From positions 496,001 through 560,000 of the forward strand of contig NZ_QKTV01000001.1 of NCBI RefSeq assembly GCF_003362725.1: a stretch of 64,000 bases of DNA, read 5' to 3'. The notes beneath the pieces were generated by a model that searched no databases, had not been told where the DNA came from, and saw only the letters and a list, made by a program, of their open reading frames with translations. Positions 19,504 through 26,672 of the stretch are shown here, piece after piece (position 1 is the stretch's first letter; every line of letters begins with the position of its first letter). A program made the translations under genes and the position numbers. This DNA comes from Winogradskyella aurantiaca. GTDB lineage: Bacteria > Bacteroidota > Bacteroidia > Flavobacteriales > Flavobacteriaceae.

Positions 19504-20127
19504 ATGCCACTCTATAAATCAATTAATCCAAACCCTTCAACTATCGTTAAGATTTGGAAGATCACAGAAAGCTATGATCAACTCATGGAATCTTTGGATC
19601 TTAAACCAGTGAGTTTAGAACGCGTTAGGAGTATGAAAAGTGAGATTCATCAAAGAGGTTTCCTAAGCGTTAGGCATTTACTGCGCGAATTAGGTTATAC
19701 GGATCAGGATATTTTTTACGATGATCGGGGTAAACCCCACCTTAAAGACGGTAAGCACATTTCAATTACGCATTCATTTACTTTTTCAGGAATTATTGTC
19801 AGCGAGCATCCAGTAGGGATTGACATCGAAATGCAGCGTCCTAAGATTGCTATAATTGCAAAGAAGTTTGTTGATTACGAATGGGATTATCTGGACACTA
19901 AACACGAGGAGTATATTCGACAATTGACCATTATTTGGGCGGTGAAGGAATCGCTGTATAAATTGTTTGCGACCGCTGGTATGCTATTTAAAGAACATTT
20001 TTTGGTAATACCCTTTATGCTTCAGGACCTGGGGACTACGGCCTGGATTGACTATAAGGGTCTTAAACAAAAGTATGAAGTAGGGTTTATAGAATTTGAA
20101 GGATTTAGTTGCGCCTACACCATTTGA
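19504..20127 (+). CDS. 4'-phosphopantetheinyl transferase, Sfp-like
   Basis: A 207-residue enzyme that transfers phosphopantetheine from CoA to carrier proteins. The motifs of the Sfp/AcpT superfamily are present: KPHLKDGKHISITHSF, PVGIDIEMQRP (Mg-binding Asp and Glu) and IIWAVKESLYKLF. With about 207 residues it is of the Sfp-like two-lobe type rather than the short AcpS. It is the first gene of the operon 19504-24237; its stop is one base before the pcrB start. The carrier-protein partner is not in the window. Confidence 0.9.
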   Translation: MPLYKSINPNPSTIVKIWKITESYDQLMESLDLKPVSLERVRSMKSEIHQRGFLSVRHLLRELGYTDQDIFYDDRGKPHLKDGKHISITHSFTFSGIIVSEHPVGIDIEMQRPKIAIIAKKFVDYEWDYLDTKHEEYIRQLTIIWAVKESLYKLFATAGMLFKEHFLVIPFMLQDLGTTAWIDYKGLKQKYEVGFIEFEGFSCAYTI

Positions 20128-20128
20128 T

Positions 20129-20866
20129 ATGCAAGAGGTTTATAAAAACATAGTTTCAGAAAAAGAGAATAAACTCCTGGCAGTCTTAATAGACCCTGAG
20201 AATGAACATTTATGGCAGATAGCACCTAAAATCAAAAAAATCAATTCTTCTGCTGCCACACATATATTCGTTGGTGGGAGCACGGATCCTGACTCAAGGA
20301 CAGATGCTGTTATCAAAGAGATCAAAAAGCATACAGCTCTTCCAGTTGTAATATTTCCTGGTGATACCAATCAAATATCAGCTTCGGCAGACGCCTTATT
20401 ATTTTTGAGTTTAATTTCAGGGCGGAATCCTGATTATCTTATTGGAAAACACGTAACTGCAGTTCCCAAAATTATTGAAGCTGGACTTGATGTTATTCCA
20501 ACAGCTTATATCTTAATTGAAGGGGGTTCAGTTTCAGCTGTAGAGCGTGTTAGTAAGACAAAACCTTTGTCTATAAATAATATCGAAACCATTGTAAAGA
20601 CGGCGAAAGCAGGGGAATTACTTGGTATGAATCTTGTGTATCTCGAAGCCGGTAGTGGAGCGTCCTTTCCAATTCCTGAGGAGGTGATTAGAGCTGTAAA
20701 AAATAATCTCAATATCCCATTGATAGTTGGTGGTGGCGTCAAAACAAAAGAACAGTTAGAAGCTGCCTATGAGGCTGGTGCCGATATGGTAGTAGTAGGG
20801 ACAGCCTTTGAACAAAACACGAGTGTCTTTGAGACTCAATTAAATCAGAAAATGATAATAAAATAG
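20129..20866 (+). CDS. pcrB: PcrB-type prenylglyceryl phosphate synthase (GGGP synthase family)
   Basis: A 245-residue TIM-barrel prenyltransferase that joins a polyprenyl diphosphate to sn-glycerol 1-phosphate, forming an ether-linked lipid precursor. Family blocks seen: KLLAVLIDPENEH, FVGGSTDPD, LPVVIFPGDTNQIS, ILIEGG, YLEAGSGA and LIVGGGVKTKEQLEAAYEAGADMVVVGTAF (last block abbreviated in sense). Archaea use it for membrane lipids; Bacteroidota carry a group with long-chain products. The ATG at 20129 is one base after the PPTase stop, so translation is coupled; an in-frame upstream start at 20096 would overlap the PPTase and is rejected. Confidence 0.92.
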   Translation: MQEVYKNIVSEKENKLLAVLIDPENEHLWQIAPKIKKINSSAATHIFVGGSTDPDSRTDAVIKEIKKHTALPVVIFPGDTNQISASADALLFLSLISGRNPDYLIGKHVTAVPKIIEAGLDVIPTAYILIEGGSVSAVERVSKTKPLSINNIETIVKTAKAGELLGMNLVYLEAGSGASFPIPEEVIRAVKNNLNIPLIVGGGVKTKEQLEAAYEAGADMVVVGTAFEQNTSVFETQLNQKMIIK

Positions 20867-20868
20867 GT

Positions 20869-21129
20869 ATGGACATATCCATAGAATTTACTCTTACACC
20901 ACTTAAAGACGATTACGAACCACACATCATCGGCTTTATAAAGGCTTTGAGAGCCTCTGAATTTACAGTTCTAGAAAACCCTTTAAGTACACAGATCTTT
21001 GGGGACTATGATCAAATTATGCCTTTTCTCAATCAGGTTATTAAAGAATCATTCGAAGGCATGGACCTTGCGGTTCTTAACATGAAAATCGTTAAAACCA
21101 ATAGAAGCGATTATGAACCCCATTTTTGA
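20869..21129 (+). CDS. YkoF-family thiamin-binding protein
   Basis: An 86-residue single-domain protein of the thiamine-binding/YkoF-like superfamily (formerly DUF77, MTH1187/YqgV). It opens ISIEFTLTPLKDDYEPHIIGFIKALRASE and closes DLAVLNMKIVKTNR, the ferredoxin-like alpha/beta unit that binds thiamin or hydroxymethylpyrimidine in YkoF. It starts 2 bases after pcrB and overlaps the transporter gene by 17 bp. Its position before a PnuC/PnuT transporter and near a TPP-riboswitch receptor supports a thiamin role. It is probably cytoplasmic, as no signal is seen. Confidence 0.85.
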   Translation: MDISIEFTLTPLKDDYEPHIIGFIKALRASEFTVLENPLSTQIFGDYDQIMPFLNQVIKESFEGMDLAVLNMKIVKTNRSDYEPHF

Positions 21130-21745
21130 GTTTTTTCTCGATGCCTACCAGAATACACCAAGCTGGCAAATAGCTCTTGAAGCCATAGCTTTTGTATTTG
21201 GAATTGCCAGCGTATGGTACGCTAAACAGGAGAATATTCTAGTCTATCCAACGGGCATAATTTGTACAATTATTACAGTCTACCTTCTGTACATCAATAG
21301 TTACCTAGGCGACATGATGATGAATCTCTACTATTCTGGAATGAGTATTTATGGCTGGTGGAACTGGTCTCGCAAAAAGGACAATAAATACATGGTGCCC
21401 ATTTCAAGAACCAATACTAAAGAGAAGCAAATTGGGGTGTTTTGTTTTGTCGTGACGATGCTGGTAACTTATGGAGTTTACAATGCTTTTGATTATACCT
21501 TAGAAATCCCTAATTATATTGATATTATCACCTCAGGAATCTTTTTTACCGCCATGTGGTATATGGCTAATAAAAAGATTGAGAATTGGACATTGTGGAT
21601 CATCGGTGATCTCATAACAATTCCTTTATATGCCTATCGCGGCTTGGGAATGCTCTCCCTGCAATATCTTATCTTTACAGTCTTGGCTATTTACGGTTAT
21701 TTAGAATGGAAGAAAAGCTTAAGCAACAACCTGCAGACTGCATAA
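21113..21745 (+). CDS. pnuT: PnuC-family transporter, probable PnuT (thiamin)
   Basis: A 210-residue inner-membrane facilitator with about seven helices. PnuC-family marks: IASVWYAKQENILVYPTGI, MNLYYSGMSIYGWWNW, FFTAMWYMANKKIENWTLWIIGD (a WxxWxxxD motif) and LIFTVLAIYGYLEWKK. PnuC carries nicotinamide riboside and PnuT carries thiamin; the sequence alone does not decide. The adjacent thiamin-binding protein and downstream TPP-riboswitch TonB receptor make thiamin the better guess. It overlaps the YkoF-type gene by 17 bp and the kinase gene by 40 bp. The family needs a cytoplasmic kinase to trap its substrate. Confidence 0.85.
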   Translation: MNPIFEFFLDAYQNTPSWQIALEAIAFVFGIASVWYAKQENILVYPTGIICTIITVYLLYINSYLGDMMMNLYYSGMSIYGWWNWSRKKDNKYMVPISRTNTKEKQIGVFCFVVTMLVTYGVYNAFDYTLEIPNYIDIITSGIFFTAMWYMANKKIENWTLWIIGDLITIPLYAYRGLGMLSLQYLIFTVLAIYGYLEWKKSLSNNLQTA

Positions 21746-22275
21746 AAATTGTGTTATTTGGACCTGAGTCCACGGGTAAAACCACACTTTCTAAGCAATT
21801 AGCCGAGTATTACAATACGCTCTGGGTACCAGAATTTGCGAGGGATTATCTTCAGGAAAAGTGGGATAGAGAAAAAAAGGTTTGTGAACCTCATGACTTG
21901 TTACCTATTGCAATTGGGCAGATGGCTTTAGAGAATGCTTATGCTCAAAGGGCAAATAAGGTATTAATTTGTGATACAGATCTTCTTGAAACAAAAGTTT
22001 ACAGTGAGGCATACTATACCGGTTCATGTGATTCAATATTAGATACTTATGCTCAGAAAAACCAGTATGAATTGTATTTGTTGACTTATATTGATACTCC
22101 TTGGGTAGCGGATGATCTGAGAGACAAGCCTAATGAGCGAGAGCGCATGTTTCAGGCATTTTATGAGGCATTGTTAACTTATGATAAACCTTTTGTTTTA
22201 TTAAAGGGAAATCCCGAGGAACGTTTTAACTTAGCTGTTGACAATATCAATCAATTGCTAGAAGCGCGTTCATGA
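21706..22275 (+). CDS. NadR-like P-loop kinase
   Basis: A 189-residue AAA/P-loop protein. The Walker A is FGPESTGKTTLSKQLA (about residues 18-33), followed by VPEFARDYL and a Walker-B-like VLICDTDLLETKVYS. This is the ribosylnicotinamide-kinase domain of NadR without the N-terminal NMN adenylyltransferase or DNA-binding parts. It starts inside the transporter gene (40-bp overlap) and ends with a 4-bp ATGA overlap into DUF4301. It presumably phosphorylates what the PnuC/PnuT-type protein imports: nicotinamide riboside if that is a PnuC, or a thiamin-related compound if a PnuT. No thiamin pyrophosphokinase gene is present here. Confidence 0.83.
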   Translation: MEEKLKQQPADCIKIVLFGPESTGKTTLSKQLAEYYNTLWVPEFARDYLQEKWDREKKVCEPHDLLPIAIGQMALENAYAQRANKVLICDTDLLETKVYSEAYYTGSCDSILDTYAQKNQYELYLLTYIDTPWVADDLRDKPNERERMFQAFYEALLTYDKPFVLLKGNPEERFNLAVDNINQLLEARS

Positions 22276-23840
22276 ACCTATCAGATCAGGATTTAAAAAA
22301 AATTGAAGAAAAAGGATTAACCTTAAAGCAGGTTAACAAACAGATTGAGACCTTTAAAACAGGATTACCGTACACTCATATTGTGGATACCGCTACCATT
22401 GGAAATGGCATTACCAAATTGAGTGACGAACTGATCGAAGAAACTATTGATTTTTTTGAAACTCACAGAAAAGGCCTGCATTTGCTAAAATTTGTGCCGG
22501 CATCGGGGGCAGCAACGCGAATGTTTAAATTCTTGTTTGAATTTTTAAAAAGTTATGATCCTCAAGTAGAATCAATTAATTCTTATATCAATAAGCATGA
22601 GCTTAAGGATTTGTCTTTATTTCTTGTTGGGTTGGAGAAATTTCCGTTTTACGATTTGGTAATAAAACAAATGTCTAGAGATGGTTCGGACTACTATGCA
22701 ATTGAAAGTATTAGAGAACGAGTTCTGACATTTGTTCATGCCATGTTGGATGAGGATAAGCTTGACTATGGTAATTTTCCAAAAGGACTTTTACCATTCC
22801 ATGAGTATAAAAATAAAGTGATTTCAACGGCTTTTGAAGAGCATTTATTTGAAACGGCACTGTATACTTCAGATGATAAGGTAGCACATTTGCATTTTAC
22901 AGTTTCGGAGAAATTTAGAGATAAATTTGTTGAAGAAACAGAAAGGATCGAACACAAAGTAGAGAAGAAAACGGGATTAAAATTTGAGATCGAATATTCG
23001 TTTCAAATGCAATCTACAGACACCATTGCAGTAACCCCAGATAATGAGCCTTTTAGGGAAGAAGATGGATCGCTTCTTTTCAGGCCATCAGGTCATGGGG
23101 CCTTAATAAAAAACCTTAACGAATTAGATGCTGATATCATATTCATTAAGAATATTGATAATGTAGTCATGTTTATGCTTAAAGAAGAGGTTGCCAAGTA
23201 TAAAAAAATACTGGCAGGGATTCTCATGAAGGTTCAAAAAGAAGCTTTCGAATTTATGCATCAATTGGACGCAGATACCCTTGAGGAAGCTGAATTAAAT
23301 AGTATTGCCGAGTTTTTAACCCGCCGTTTAAACGTTAAGATTTCTCATGAGTTCGAGAGGTACTCAGACGCATACAAGCGCGAGTATTTAAGAGAAAAGC
23401 TTAACAGACCCATTCGAGTATGTGGAATGGTTAAGAATGAGGGTGAGCCTGGTGGTGGTCCGTTTTGGGTGCGTGATCAAAACTGGAATGCTTCCTTACA
23501 AATTGTAGAATCGGCACAGGTTAACTTAAATGACCCAGCTCAAAAAAACATTTTTAAGAATGCCACCCATTTCAATCCGGTAGATTTAGTATGTGCCACT
23601 AAAGATTACAAGGGAAATAAGTTTGATTTAAATGAATTTGTTGACGAAAAATCGGCATTTATAACCAATAAGACTAGAAATGGCAAAGCCATTAAGGCAT
23701 TGGAATTGCCAGGTCTTTGGAACGGGTCCATGGCCTTTTGGAACTCAATTTTTGTTGAAGTACCTATAGTTACATTTAATCCTGTAAAAACAGTGAACGA
23801 TCTTCTAAAACCCCCACACCAAAGAGGTGATATTAGATAA
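22272..23840 (+). CDS. DUF4301 protein, nucleotidyltransferase-like
   Basis: A 522-residue DUF4301 protein, with no signal peptide. Residues 75-86 (VPASGAATRMFK) resemble the GG-x-x-TR-x loop of sugar nucleotidyltransferases, and about 271-295 (FRPSGHGALIKNL then IIFIKNIDNV) resembles the PxGHG and (V/I)DN segments of UDP-sugar pyrophosphorylases. I infer a nucleotidyltransferase fold, but no substrate is known to me. It overlaps the kinase gene by 4 bp and the ArfB-like gene by 14 bp, so it is part of the same translationally coupled operon. Its link to thiamin or lipid genes is unexplained. Confidence 0.75.
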   Translation: MNLSDQDLKKIEEKGLTLKQVNKQIETFKTGLPYTHIVDTATIGNGITKLSDELIEETIDFFETHRKGLHLLKFVPASGAATRMFKFLFEFLKSYDPQVESINSYINKHELKDLSLFLVGLEKFPFYDLVIKQMSRDGSDYYAIESIRERVLTFVHAMLDEDKLDYGNFPKGLLPFHEYKNKVISTAFEEHLFETALYTSDDKVAHLHFTVSEKFRDKFVEETERIEHKVEKKTGLKFEIEYSFQMQSTDTIAVTPDNEPFREEDGSLLFRPSGHGALIKNLNELDADIIFIKNIDNVVMFMLKEEVAKYKKILAGILMKVQKEAFEFMHQLDADTLEEAELNSIAEFLTRRLNVKISHEFERYSDAYKREYLREKLNRPIRVCGMVKNEGEPGGGPFWVRDQNWNASLQIVESAQVNLNDPAQKNIFKNATHFNPVDLVCATKDYKGNKFDLNEFVDEKSAFITNKTRNGKAIKALELPGLWNGSMAFWNSIFVEVPIVTFNPVKTVNDLLKPPHQRGDIR

Positions 23841-24237
23841 AAAGGGCATAGGCAGAGAACTAAAATTTAAAGCCATAAGGAGTTCTGGAAGTGGGGGTCA
23901 GCATGTCAACAAGGTAGCTACCAAGGTAGAGCTTAGCTTCGATTTGCAGTCATCATTGTTTCTTTCTGTTGACCAAAAACAAAAGTTGATACAGACTTAC
24001 GCTTCTATGCTAAGCAAAGAGGGGGTATTACGTTTGAGCTCTGGTAAGACACGTAGCCAGTTACGAAATAAGGAACTGGTAACCCAGCGCTTATTTGATC
24101 TTTTAGAAGCCGGGTTAAAGACTCAGAAAAAGCGGAAGTCTACCACTGTGCCGCGAGCTGTAAAAAGAAAGCGTCAGGAAGATAAACGCCGACATTCGGA
24201 CAAAAAATCGAGCCGAAAACCACCGAAAATAGGTTAA
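23827..24237 (+). CDS. arfB: ArfB/YaeJ-like peptidyl-tRNA hydrolase
   Basis: A 136-residue protein with the class I release-factor catalytic domain only: FKAIRSSGSGGQHVNKVATKVEL holds the GGQ motif at about residues 22-24. The basic tail (KKRKSTTVPRAVKRKRQEDKRRHSDKKSSRK) matches the C-terminal tail with which ArfB enters the empty mRNA channel of stalled ribosomes. Its role is release of peptides from non-stop ribosomes. The start is the GTG at 23827, overlapping DUF4301 by 14 bp. It is the last gene of the operon; the next promoter begins about 60 bases downstream. Confidence 0.9.
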   Translation: MILDKKGIGRELKFKAIRSSGSGGQHVNKVATKVELSFDLQSSLFLSVDQKQKLIQTYASMLSKEGVLRLSSGKTRSQLRNKELVTQRLFDLLEAGLKTQKKRKSTTVPRAVKRKRQEDKRRHSDKKSSRKPPKIG

Positions 24238-24294
24238 GTTTTTAAAGAGTAGTAAAAAAATCTTTCAACTGCGTAATCAATCTAATTTCTATCG

Positions 24295-24302
24295 TATTTT
24301 TG
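24295..24302 (+). promoter_or_regulatory. Promoter -7 box of the TPP-riboswitch transcript
   Basis: TATTTTTG matches the Bacteroidota TAnnTTTG box. A start about 7 bases on would place the 5' end at the riboswitch P1 helix. No TTG at 17-23 bases upstream was found. Confidence 0.55.
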
Positions 24303-24303
24303 C

Positions 24304-24388
24304 GGCGTTCTCAAAAGGGGTGCCCTTCAAAGGGCTGAGATCATACCCATAGAACCTGGAACAGGTAATGCTGTTTAGGGAAAAATGC
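24304..24388 (+). promoter_or_regulatory. TPP (THI-box) riboswitch
   Basis: The conserved thiamin-pyrophosphate aptamer blocks occur in order: GGGGTGCC (24317-24324), CTGAGA (24335-24340), ACCC (24345-24348), GAACCTG (24352-24358), GGTAATGC (24364-24371) and AGGGA (24377-24381). P1 can form between 24308-24312 and 24378-24382. The spacing is that of the short form without a long P3 arm. The downstream gene is a TonB-dependent receptor, 97 bases away, expected to be turned off when TPP is abundant. Confidence 0.93.
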
Positions 24389-24466
24389 TAAATCTGATGT
24401 GCAACAGCTCAGTTTTGGCGTATTGTTTAATCAAAATAGTAACAAGAATAATTACCTCTTTTTATT

Positions 24467-24483
24467 CGATTAGTAACTAATCG
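24467..24483 (+). promoter_or_regulatory. Hairpin just before the TonB receptor start
   Basis: CGATTAG and CTAATCG (24467-24473, 24477-24483) form a 7-bp stem with a 3-base loop ending two bases before the ATG at 24486. No T-run follows, so it is not a terminator. It could be the ribosome-blocking part of the riboswitch's expression platform. Confidence 0.45.
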
Positions 24484-24485
24484 TA

Positions 24486-26672
24486 ATGAAAAATTTATTC
24501 GTATTTGTAGTAGCCTTATTTGTTGCTACTAACCTTTTTGCGCAACAACAACAGCAGCAAAAGGACTCAACAGAGGTTGAGAAATTAGATGAGGTCTTAG
24601 TAAAGGCCGTGAGGGTGGATGCAGAGTCGCCAATTACCCACACAAATATTACCAAAACTGAGATTGCAAAACGTAACCTCGGTCAGGATATGCCTGAAAT
24701 TCTCAAGTTTTTACCGTCTGTAGTTAATACCTCAGACGCTGGAGCGAGTGTTGGCTATACCGGAATTAGAATCCGTGGGGTAAGCCCCCAATCCACTAAT
24801 GTTACCATCAATGGTATACCCTATAATGATGCCGAGTCTCTAGGAACCTTTTGGGTTAATTTAGGAGATTTTGCTTCCTCAACTGAAAGCTTACAGTTAC
24901 AACGTGGGGTAGGGACCTCTACCAATGGCTCTGGAGCCTTTGGAGCCAGTATTAACATCTTAACAGATGCAACCACCTATGAACCATCTGGCGAGATTTC
25001 CAATTCCTTTGGGAGTTTTAATACGCGTAAGCATACGGTAAAGTTTAGTACTGGTCTCATGAATGATCATTTTGAAATTTCGGGACGCCTTTCCAATATA
25101 GCTTCTGACGGTTACATTGATAGAGCCAGTGCAGATTTAAAATCCTATTTTCTTCAAGGGTCTTTTATAATGGACAATACGTTTATTAAGGCCGTTGTTT
25201 TTGGTGGAAAAGAAGTAACATACCAATCCTGGTTTGGGATTGATGCAGAAACATTGGCAACAGACAGAACGTTTAACCCAGCAGGGATCTACACTGGTCG
25301 CGATGGTAATATTACTTTCTATGACAACGAGGTAGATAATTATAACCAGGATCATTACCAGTTACACTGGAATCAGCGCTATAATAGAAATTGGTCCACC
25401 ACCCTAAGTTTAAATTACACCTACGGTCGCGGATATTTTGAGCAGTTTCGTGAAGATGATGACTTTAGCACCTACGGTTTTGAACCCATTTTTGTCAACG
25501 GGGAACTTGTGGATACTACCAACTTAATTCGAAGAAGATGGTTGGATAATAACTTTTATGTTGTCAACGCGAACGCCAATTACAAAACAGATTCGGTAGA
25601 TTTTGTGTTTGGTGGATCGTTTAGTTCTTATGATGGGGATCATTTTGGTGAGGTCATCTGGGCAGAGTTTGGACCTGGTAGTGAAATTCGAGATCGTTAT
25701 TATGATGGTAACAGTAAAAAGACTGACTTATCTGGGTTTGCTAAGGCGAATTACCGCCTAAATGATAAGCTGTTATTATATGGAGATTTACAACTGAGAA
25801 ATGTAACCTACAAGACAGTAGGTACCAACTCGGACCTTGATCCTTTTGAGGTAGATAAGAACTTTACCTTCTTTAATCCTAAGGCCGGACTTACGTATAA
25901 CCTTAATACCACCAATGATTTATACTTCTCATATGCGCGAGCTAATCGTGAGCCAAACAGAACAGATTTTGAAAGTAACCCAGATATTAGACCTGAAGTC
26001 TTAAATGATTTTGAGTTAGGTTGGCGCCATGCCAAAAACGGCTTTAGTTTTAATGCCAACTCATACTTTATGCTCTACAACGAACAGCTTGTATTATCCG
26101 GGGAATTAGATGATGTTGGGAATCCAATACGTACCAATAGCGGTGAGAGTTATAGAATTGGATTGGAATTAGAGGCCGTTATACCTTTAGGGTCTAAGTG
26201 GGCCTTGCAACCTAATTTAACCTTAAGCACCAATCGCAATAGAGAAACCATTACTTCTATTGATGGAGAACTAGTAAATCTAGGGAGCACTGCTATCGCA
26301 TTTACACCCAATGTTATTGGTGCAAATGCCATAGTTTATAGTCCAATTGAGCCACTTCAAATTTCATTATTGTCCAAATATGTTGGGGAACAATTTATGA
26401 GTAACACAGAAGCGCAACTTTCAAAATTAGATGCCTACTTCATCAACGATTTAAATGTTGTTTATACGATAAAGACGAATAAGGTGTTTGATTCAGTTGT
26501 TATTACCGGATTGGTAAATAATCTTTTCAATGAGGAGTATGTGTCCAATGGATACTATTTCACATATGATGATGATTTTACAGATCCAGGAACGATTACA
26601 ACTGTTGAAGGGGTTGGCTATTACCCACAGGCAACTATTAACTTTCTAATAGGAGTTTCCTTATTCTTTTAA
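24486..26672 (+). CDS. TonB-dependent receptor, probable thiamin uptake
   Basis: A 728-residue outer-membrane receptor. The signal peptide is MKNLFVFVVALFVATNLFAQ, followed by a Gln stretch and a TonB-box-like segment (VEKLDEVLVKAVRV). The plug domain runs to about residue 165 (GYTGIRIRGVSPQSTNVTINGI, LQRGVGTSTNGSGAFGASINI, shown in part), then a 22-strand-type barrel ending in LIGVSLFF. There is no N-terminal carboxypeptidase-like domain. Control by a TPP riboswitch and the adjacent PnuT/YkoF operon point to thiamin or a thiamin phosphate as ligand. Its stop shares the tetramer TTAA with the stop of the convergent lipoprotein gene. Confidence 0.9.
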   Translation: MKNLFVFVVALFVATNLFAQQQQQQKDSTEVEKLDEVLVKAVRVDAESPITHTNITKTEIAKRNLGQDMPEILKFLPSVVNTSDAGASVGYTGIRIRGVSPQSTNVTINGIPYNDAESLGTFWVNLGDFASSTESLQLQRGVGTSTNGSGAFGASINILTDATTYEPSGEISNSFGSFNTRKHTVKFSTGLMNDHFEISGRLSNIASDGYIDRASADLKSYFLQGSFIMDNTFIKAVVFGGKEVTYQSWFGIDAETLATDRTFNPAGIYTGRDGNITFYDNEVDNYNQDHYQLHWNQRYNRNWSTTLSLNYTYGRGYFEQFREDDDFSTYGFEPIFVNGELVDTTNLIRRRWLDNNFYVVNANANYKTDSVDFVFGGSFSSYDGDHFGEVIWAEFGPGSEIRDRYYDGNSKKTDLSGFAKANYRLNDKLLLYGDLQLRNVTYKTVGTNSDLDPFEVDKNFTFFNPKAGLTYNLNTTNDLYFSYARANREPNRTDFESNPDIRPEVLNDFELGWRHAKNGFSFNANSYFMLYNEQLVLSGELDDVGNPIRTNSGESYRIGLELEAVIPLGSKWALQPNLTLSTNRNRETITSIDGELVNLGSTAIAFTPNVIGANAIVYSPIEPLQISLLSKYVGEQFMSNTEAQLSKLDAYFINDLNVVYTIKTNKVFDSVVITGLVNNLFNEEYVSNGYYFTYDDDFTDPGTITTVEGVGYYPQATINFLIGVSLFF

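Follow-up and report, generated by a model that had tools for sequence, protein, structure and literature searches.

The locus and its TPP riboswitch

We analyzed a 64,000-nucleotide stretch of the Winogradskyella aurantiaca genome (contig NZ_QKTV01000001.1, positions 496,001 to 560,000; hereafter "the window"), in which an operon of seven genes, including those for a Pnu-family transporter and for a NadR-like kinase that is here considered a candidate thiamin kinase, is followed by a thiamin pyrophosphate (TPP) riboswitch and a TonB-dependent receptor gene. The features of this locus, with the matches on which their annotation is based, are as follows:

19504..20127, + strand: 4'-phosphopantetheinyl transferase (PPTase), operon gene 1 (PF01648, 40.1 bits)
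20129..20866, + strand: PcrB/geranylgeranylglyceryl phosphate (GGGP)-synthase family protein (TIGR01769, 186.7 bits, cut-off 161.6)
20869..21129, + strand: ThiBP, small thiamin-binding protein of the YkoF/MTH1187 type, 86 amino acids (PF01910, PF07615)
21113..21745, + strand: PnuT, Pnu-family inner-membrane protein proposed to transport thiamin (PF04973, 176.8 bits; co-occurrence)
21706..22275, + strand: NadR-like P-loop kinase, proposed thiamin kinase producing thiamin monophosphate (TMP) from thiamin and ATP (PF13521, 143.9 bits; exchange with thiamin pyrophosphokinase)
22272..23840, + strand: DUF4301 protein (PF14134, 715 bits)
23827..24237, + strand: ArfB ribosome-rescue hydrolase, the operon's last gene (NF006718, 115 bits, cut-off 100)
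24306..24400, + strand: TPP riboswitch aptamer, 5' of the receptor gene (RF00059, 46.9 bits; own model R1, 88 bits)
24459..24492, + strand: predicted stem over the receptor start codon, candidate expression platform, inverted-repeat core 24467-24483 (single-strand fold prediction)
24486..26672, + strand: TonB-dependent receptor, proposed outer-membrane thiamin receptor of the OMthi/Omr1 type (PF00593, PF07715)

The seven operon genes (19504-24237) are packed close together or overlap, with the riboswitch and then the receptor gene downstream, and the operon looks translationally coupled because consecutive genes overlap from the ThiBP gene through arfB. An earlier note, made from this DNA without database searches, had named the thiamin-binding protein, the transporter, the kinase, DUF4301 and PcrB of the operon, the receptor and the riboswitch, and all were recovered here by profile matches. 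ThiBP, for which an alignment of 11 proteins was built, scored 23.5 bits with PF01910 (cut-off 24.9) and 21.2 bits with the YkoF profile PF07615 (cut-off 21; 82 of its 86 residues scanned), and the PF04973 match of PnuT spans positions 2-175 of 175. The nearest named kinase loci are from Winogradskyella, Olleya, Algibacter, Maribacter and their kin. ArfB is a passenger in this operon, PcrB probably is as well, and the PPTase, although found at the same operon position in most relatives read, probably has no part in the thiamin function.

The window riboswitch matched RF00059 over its full length at 46.9 bits (E = 2.1e-8 in a 271-base search), i.e., below the Rfam gathering score of 54.3; a default Rfam scan of the whole window was accordingly empty. 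It was detected by a laxer-threshold search of a short stretch and with our own model R1, built from the window riboswitch and 11 relatives, whereas a strict text pattern missed almost every copy. Its core is intact and common to the 12 aligned sequences, and R1 detected riboswitches at homologous places in relatives. When five of these relatives were scanned with Rfam, three passed the gathering score (L106 and L079, both 58.6 bits; L118, 56.3) and two fell below it (L058, 53.0; L119, 46.9); the riboswitches of L079 and L106 stand, like that of the window, before the receptor gene. The stem at 24459-24492, which is predicted to cover the receptor start codon, may be the translation-blocking expression platform of the riboswitch.

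In G271 (L118), the copy scoring above the gathering score lies immediately 5' of a pnuT-kinase pair, and a second one, detected by R1 only (31.5 bits), precedes the receptor gene. In the 1.2 Mb genome G144 (L079), where the operon is reduced to the genes for PPTase, PnuT, kinase and receptor, a riboswitch above the gathering score sits between kinase and receptor. We also observed a riboswitch (53.0 bits) directly 5' of a Pnu gene (L058:6581-7339), 36% identical to the window PnuT, in G096, a genome that has thiamin pyrophosphokinase (TPK) and no kinase.

Thiamin enzymes in the genome, the family and the class

TPK makes TPP in one step, and E. coli ThiK (YcfN) instead converts thiamin to TMP, after which ThiL completes the synthesis of TPP. 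In the assembly of the window's own genome (G000; 3.1 Mb, 25 contigs, 100% complete by computed estimate), ThiL was found above its cut-off, and a search at E 0.001 returned zero matches to TPK, ThiK, ThiC and ThiE. This extends to the whole assembly the earlier note's remark that no TPK is encoded nearby, and the TPK profile used (PF04263) did find its target in 7 of 14 control genomes, including Bacteroides ihuae and B. subtilis. Judging from this gene content, the organism is probably a thiamin auxotroph. ThiL requires TMP, and neither of the known thiamin-phosphorylating families searched (TPK and ThiK) is present to supply it. With ThiL present, the sole missing step is then a plain thiamin kinase, for which the kinase encoded beside pnuT would be the obvious candidate. 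The lack of TPK, presented in the earlier note as a puzzle, thus stands as an observation, while the presence of ThiL offers it a simple answer.

A survey of the family covered 149 genomes, each at least 95% complete and each from a different genus. It detected the kinase in 141, TPK in 13, ThiL in all 149, and PnuT in 147 (E 0.001, including a few weak matches). The model for ThiK (TIGR02721) gave no match above its cut-off in these 149 genomes and 14 weak ones, none of them in G000. TPK was present in 5 of the 8 genomes without the kinase (G002, G014, G076, G096, G116, G118, G137 and G140) and in 8 of the 141 with it (Fisher p = 1.1e-4; scoring the broken kinase of G120 as absent lowers it to 9e-6, and neither value takes kinship into account), and all five of the 13 TPK proteins that were scanned pass the NCBI TPK model. 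ThiE was scored in 54 family genomes at E <= 1e-20 (43 were above the curated cut-off, and 12 more had weak matches only), and each of the 95 genomes that are ThiE-less by this threshold carries the kinase (92), TPK (2), or both (1). Hence, 92 of the 149 genomes combine ThiL and the kinase with neither ThiE nor TPK. The three genomes with neither enzyme (G014, G137, G140) have ThiE, and their PnuT is absent or a weak match. The suggestion of the earlier note that the kinase may be a thiamin enzyme is supported by this exchange with TPK and by the coverage of ThiE-less genomes.

Individual loci appear to record stages of this exchange. In G076, G116, G118 and G347, the operon is kept (PnuT, DUF4301, ArfB) with the kinase and thiamin-binding genes lost, and in G120 the kinase frame is broken by three in-frame stops; TPK is encoded elsewhere in all five genomes. 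The operon region was read for these kinase-less genomes, with G096 read at one Pnu locus only. Around the TPK genes of the family genomes that made the switch (L047-L056), R1 found no riboswitch match at E values up to 0.5. A family tree of 41 genomes, based on joined SahH, DUF4301 and PPTase sequences, displays five independent kinase losses; its genomes were hand-chosen, such that TPK-bearing ones are over-represented, five of these coming from one genus. Within this set, all 15 genomes with TPK and 1 of the 26 without it show no thiamin-binding gene in the stretch read, and on the tree six independent pairs on well-supported branches link its absence to TPK (sign-test p ~0.03). The thiamin-binding gene is gone in TPK-bearing genomes even where the kinase is intact. 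The likely order of events is a gain of TPK, then the loss of the binding protein, and finally the loss of the kinase.

At the class level (246 genomes), we detected TPK in 51 genomes, the kinase in 141, and the PnuT family in 182. PnuT-bearing genomes divide into 133 with the kinase only, 41 with TPK only, 5 with both and 3 with neither (G178, G260, G303), so that 179 of 182 have one enzyme or the other (178 of 182 without G234), and the 64 genomes without a PnuT match include 56 with neither enzyme, 5 with TPK and 3 with the kinase. A divergent Pnu gene adjoins the kinase in G156, G165 and G362, which have the kinase and were negative in the PnuT search. Four of the genomes with both enzymes are from one genus (g102), and the "kinase" of the fifth, G342, is a two-domain NadR (L104), as is the kinase match of G234 (L110); these two calls were wrong, and others at loci beyond those read may be too. 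The class contrast largely follows kinship, with TPK in some families and the kinase in others, and a flip is visible within family f32, in which TPK without a kinase match was found in G213, and the kinase without TPK in G179, G242, G333, G352, G370 and G386. Three class loci (L124-L126) display the order riboswitch, receptor, pnuT, TPK, with homologous receptors that match the window receptor at 512-567 bits.

The association between kinase and transporter is also apparent in gene order. Among 57 kinase stretches (62 kinase matches minus four NadR and one broken kinase), pnuT lies at most 300 bases from the kinase in 50, and a receptor scoring above 300 bits is present in 25. In G382 (L236), PnuT and the kinase form a single protein of 392 residues, with a riboswitch and a receptor gene downstream, and in G144 and G016 the pnuT-kinase pair persists after the loss of most other operon genes. 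In G245 (L091:4121-6649), the kinase gene begins 6 bases past one that encodes a dehydrogenase of the E1 type, an enzyme dependent on TPP. Fusions of the kinase to an aldose 1-epimerase domain (G199, L239:4663-6108) and to a GNAT acetyltransferase domain (G283, L237:5721-6707) were also observed.

Substrate and product of the kinase

The window kinase (189 amino acids) matches PF13521 far above its cut-off of 27 bits, yet covers only positions 165-319 of the 325 in the NadR model TIGR01526 (102.7 bits, cut-off 341), the N-terminal nicotinamide mononucleotide (NMN) adenylyltransferase domain of NadR being absent. In a kinase tree, a single branch (support 98/94) sets 58 adenylyltransferase-less kinases, six of them fused to DUF4301, apart from the kinase domains of 8 NadR proteins, including three with solved structures. 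Window residues K97, Q72 and E76, which correspond to Q255, H230 and I234 of H. influenzae NadR, are candidate specificity positions. The structural model of the kinase (predicted local distance difference test score, pLDDT, 96) has NadR as its nearest solved fold (8x7f, template-modeling score, TM, 0.85), followed by thymidylate kinases. Both kinds of enzyme transfer one phosphate, and the predicted fold would therefore favor TMP over TPP as the product.

Taken together, we consider it likely that the locus is a thiamin uptake and salvage module in which the kinase traps thiamin as TMP and ThiL converts TMP to TPP. Several observations weigh against this reading. At the level of enzymes, a strict ThiE cut-off makes G014 a ThiE-less genome with neither kinase nor TPK; eight family genomes carry both TPK and the kinase, although in one (G120) the kinase is broken; and two ThiE-less, TPK-only family genomes retain ThiL. 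An independent-pairs test of kinase against TPK, with 5 pairs only, had a median p of 0.5. At the class level, for which the eight genomes with ThiL below its cut-off were picked by E-values, ThiL falls below the cut-off in 3 of 136 kinase-only and 3 of 46 TPK-only genomes (p = 0.17), so that the higher loss of ThiL expected in TPK-only genomes was not confirmed. As for regulation, the window riboswitch precedes the receptor only, and the TPP-riboswitch context described in the earlier note accordingly holds for the receptor and not for the seven-gene operon. A riboswitch was found in 28 of the 57 kinase stretches (18 of 21 in the family and 10 of 36 elsewhere), and an Rfam scan of 32 stretches (27 kinase, 5 NadR-type) at gathering scores returned zero TPP riboswitches, at a threshold that also misses the window's own.

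The remaining points against thiamin as the substrate are also those that favor a nicotinamide-riboside system, in which PnuC would import nicotinamide riboside, the kinase would convert it to NMN as in Haemophilus, and the nearness of the receptor would be accidental. The closest solved relatives of kinase and transporter are NadR, a nicotinamide-riboside kinase, and PnuC. The NCBI PnuC model TIGR01528 passes on the window transporter (89.6 bits, cut-off 42.5), although this model may fail to separate PnuT from PnuC. In a midpoint-rooted PnuT tree, NadR-linked PnuC proteins share the window's half and TPK-linked PnuT proteins fall in the opposite one (deep support 85/70, which is weak). In the same tree, four of the five NadR-linked PnuC cluster together with the window protein outside, and the one solved PnuC sits on a very long branch placed, across weak deep branches, in the half of TPK-linked PnuT. 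The operon slot in the family holds two PnuT lineages, which share ~61-81% and 40-56% identity with the window protein, a pattern suggestive of a transporter swapped in place.

Further evidence stands against nicotinamide riboside. The window kinase is without the adenylyltransferase half, and PnuC-NadR modules occur separately. In L063, L086, L093, L104 and L110, PnuC is paired with a NadR of 320-331 residues; the four of these five NadR proteins that were scanned span both halves of TIGR01526 (165-277 bits, cut-off 341); their kinases branch apart; and R1 found no riboswitch match better than E 0.01 in any of the five loci. One genome, G001, carries both such a module and the operon kinase. 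Nicotinamide riboside also gives no reason for the exchange with TPK or for the coverage of every ThiE-less genome. Once the NadR modules proved separate, it was rejected as the main substrate, and we now regard this explanation as improbable. Co-occurrence and the TPK exchange favor the earlier note's view that the transporter carries thiamin rather than nicotinamide riboside.

About equally improbable, in our judgment, is that the kinase acts on thiamin as a pyrophosphokinase of a new fold, producing TPP in one step such that ThiL would not be needed. The exchange partner TPK does yield TPP directly, and three kinase-only genomes have ThiL below its cut-off (G267, G332, G382), but these are fragmented assemblies, 96-97% complete. 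All 149 family genomes, including the 95 that are ThiE-less, retain ThiL, and, as noted above, the nearest folds (NadR kinase domain, thymidylate kinases) belong to enzymes that transfer one phosphate.

Less probable still is a piece of thiamin, i.e., hydroxymethylpyrimidine (HMP), hydroxyethylthiazole or a degradation product, as the kinase substrate. YkoF, a relative of ThiBP, is listed as a binder of B1 or HMP in PMC10881298. Without ThiE, however, as in the window's own genome and 95 of the 149 family genomes, the known route cannot join the pieces into thiamin phosphate, and the exchange with TPK indicates thiamin itself. HMP, which the earlier note had put forward as a possible substrate, would be unusable in such a genome and was rejected, ThiE and ThiC having no match in G000. 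Finally, in an operon that evidently holds unrelated housekeeping genes (PPTase, PcrB, arfB), the kinase might be supposed to be one more passenger, acting on some unrelated nucleoside, but this is hardly credible given its persistent pairing with pnuT (G144, G016), its proximity to pnuT in 50 of 57 stretches, and the fusion in G382.

DUF4301, known thiamin systems and the proposed route

The DUF4301 protein, scarcely mentioned in the literature searched, is predicted to resemble UDP-sugar pyrophosphorylases. All 31 fold matches of its model (pLDDT 90) at E <= 0.001 are UDP-glucose or UDP-N-acetylglucosamine (UDP-GlcNAc) pyrophosphorylases, with TM scores of 0.36-0.55. The kinase and DUF4301 form a single open frame in 9 of 41 family genomes, four of them from one genus (L062, L070-L074, L222-L224; both domains confirmed in L062), with six changes on the tree. 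Based on the pyrophosphorylase likeness and this fusion, DUF4301 could be imagined as a nucleotidyltransferase joining TMP to a nucleotide, as in adenosine-thiamin-diphosphate, with ThiBP as the carrier, and the module would then go beyond salvage. We consider this very unlikely, however, as DUF4301 stays behind in operons that no longer have an intact kinase (G076, G116, G118, G120, G347), and the stretches read from outside the family showed no DUF4301 next to the kinase. PcrB occurs in some of the class-level stretches read. DUF4301 and PcrB, both described as unexplained in the earlier note, are thus partly explained by the pyrophosphorylase-like prediction and the GGGP-synthase family, respectively, and neither is a constant kinase partner outside the family. 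A Flavo-1 RNA (RF01705, 44.1 bits) was also observed just past sahH in G108 (L068:11507-11590).

Part of the proposed module is already known from other Bacteroidetes. According to passages of PMC5613172, gut Bacteroidetes with these genes mostly have the order riboswitch, receptor, pnuT, TPK; in B. thetaiotaomicron the genes are split, and strains without thiamin biosynthesis need ~10x more thiamin after the loss of pnuT or the receptor. In the portions consulted of a metabolic reconstruction of 2,228 genomes (PMC6593275), PnuT is treated as a B1 transporter and ThiK, ThiM and ThiN as the signature enzymes of B1 salvage. The Bacteroides OMthi/pnuT/tnr3 system, as it appears in passages of PMC5613172, shares with the window the TPP riboswitch, the TonB receptor and the Pnu transporter. 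It differs in its last enzyme, Tnr3 (TPK), in place of which the window has a NadR-like kinase that would act with ThiL, and the window additionally includes the thiamin-binding protein, DUF4301, PcrB, PPTase and ArfB.

The kinase itself can be compared with three known systems. It shares with NadR/PnuC a homologous kinase half (PF13521), a Pnu transporter as neighbor and the nearest solved fold, but has no adenylyltransferase half, belongs to a separate tree group, carries other residues at K97, Q72 and E76, and occurs in a TPP riboswitch context. Its predicted reaction is the same as that of ThiK/YcfN, although the protein family is different. TPK (ThiN, Tnr3) acts at the corresponding point of the pathway, takes the slot after pnuT in L124-L126, and is again of a different protein family (PF04263). 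The kinase would thus be a stand-in for both ThiK (ycfN) and TPK. Of the "new kinase activity" proposed in the earlier note, the protein family would indeed be new, whereas thiamin kinase activity is known from E. coli ThiK. What would be new relative to the known module is hence the replacement of thiamin pyrophosphokinase by an unrelated kinase and ThiL, the uptake part being already known. No paper tying a NadR-like kinase to thiamin was found in the literature searched, although older papers may already contain such a prediction, and the passages seen of marine B1 surveys name no such kinase.

The gene content, the riboswitch, the genes without a match in the assembly and the TPK exchange are established at the level of sequence; from these we infer every substrate and the order of steps that follow. 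The TonB receptor would bring thiamin into the periplasm, and PnuT would carry it across the inner membrane. ThiBP would hold thiamin or pass it on, a role that we guess from its family and from its loss alongside TPK. The NadR-like kinase would then convert thiamin to TMP, trapping it, and ThiL, encoded elsewhere in the genome, would convert TMP to TPP, which would in turn switch off the receptor via the riboswitch.

Many flavobacteria seem to need vitamin B1 from outside and are without a recognized enzyme to phosphorylate it. If correct, the proposed route would fill this gap in B1 metabolism for a large group that is mostly marine, and would correct likely mis-annotations such as "NadR-like" and "nicotinamide riboside transporter". 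It would also represent a clear case of enzyme-family replacement, the stages of which are still visible in genomes with both enzymes, with a decaying kinase, and with the kinase deleted.

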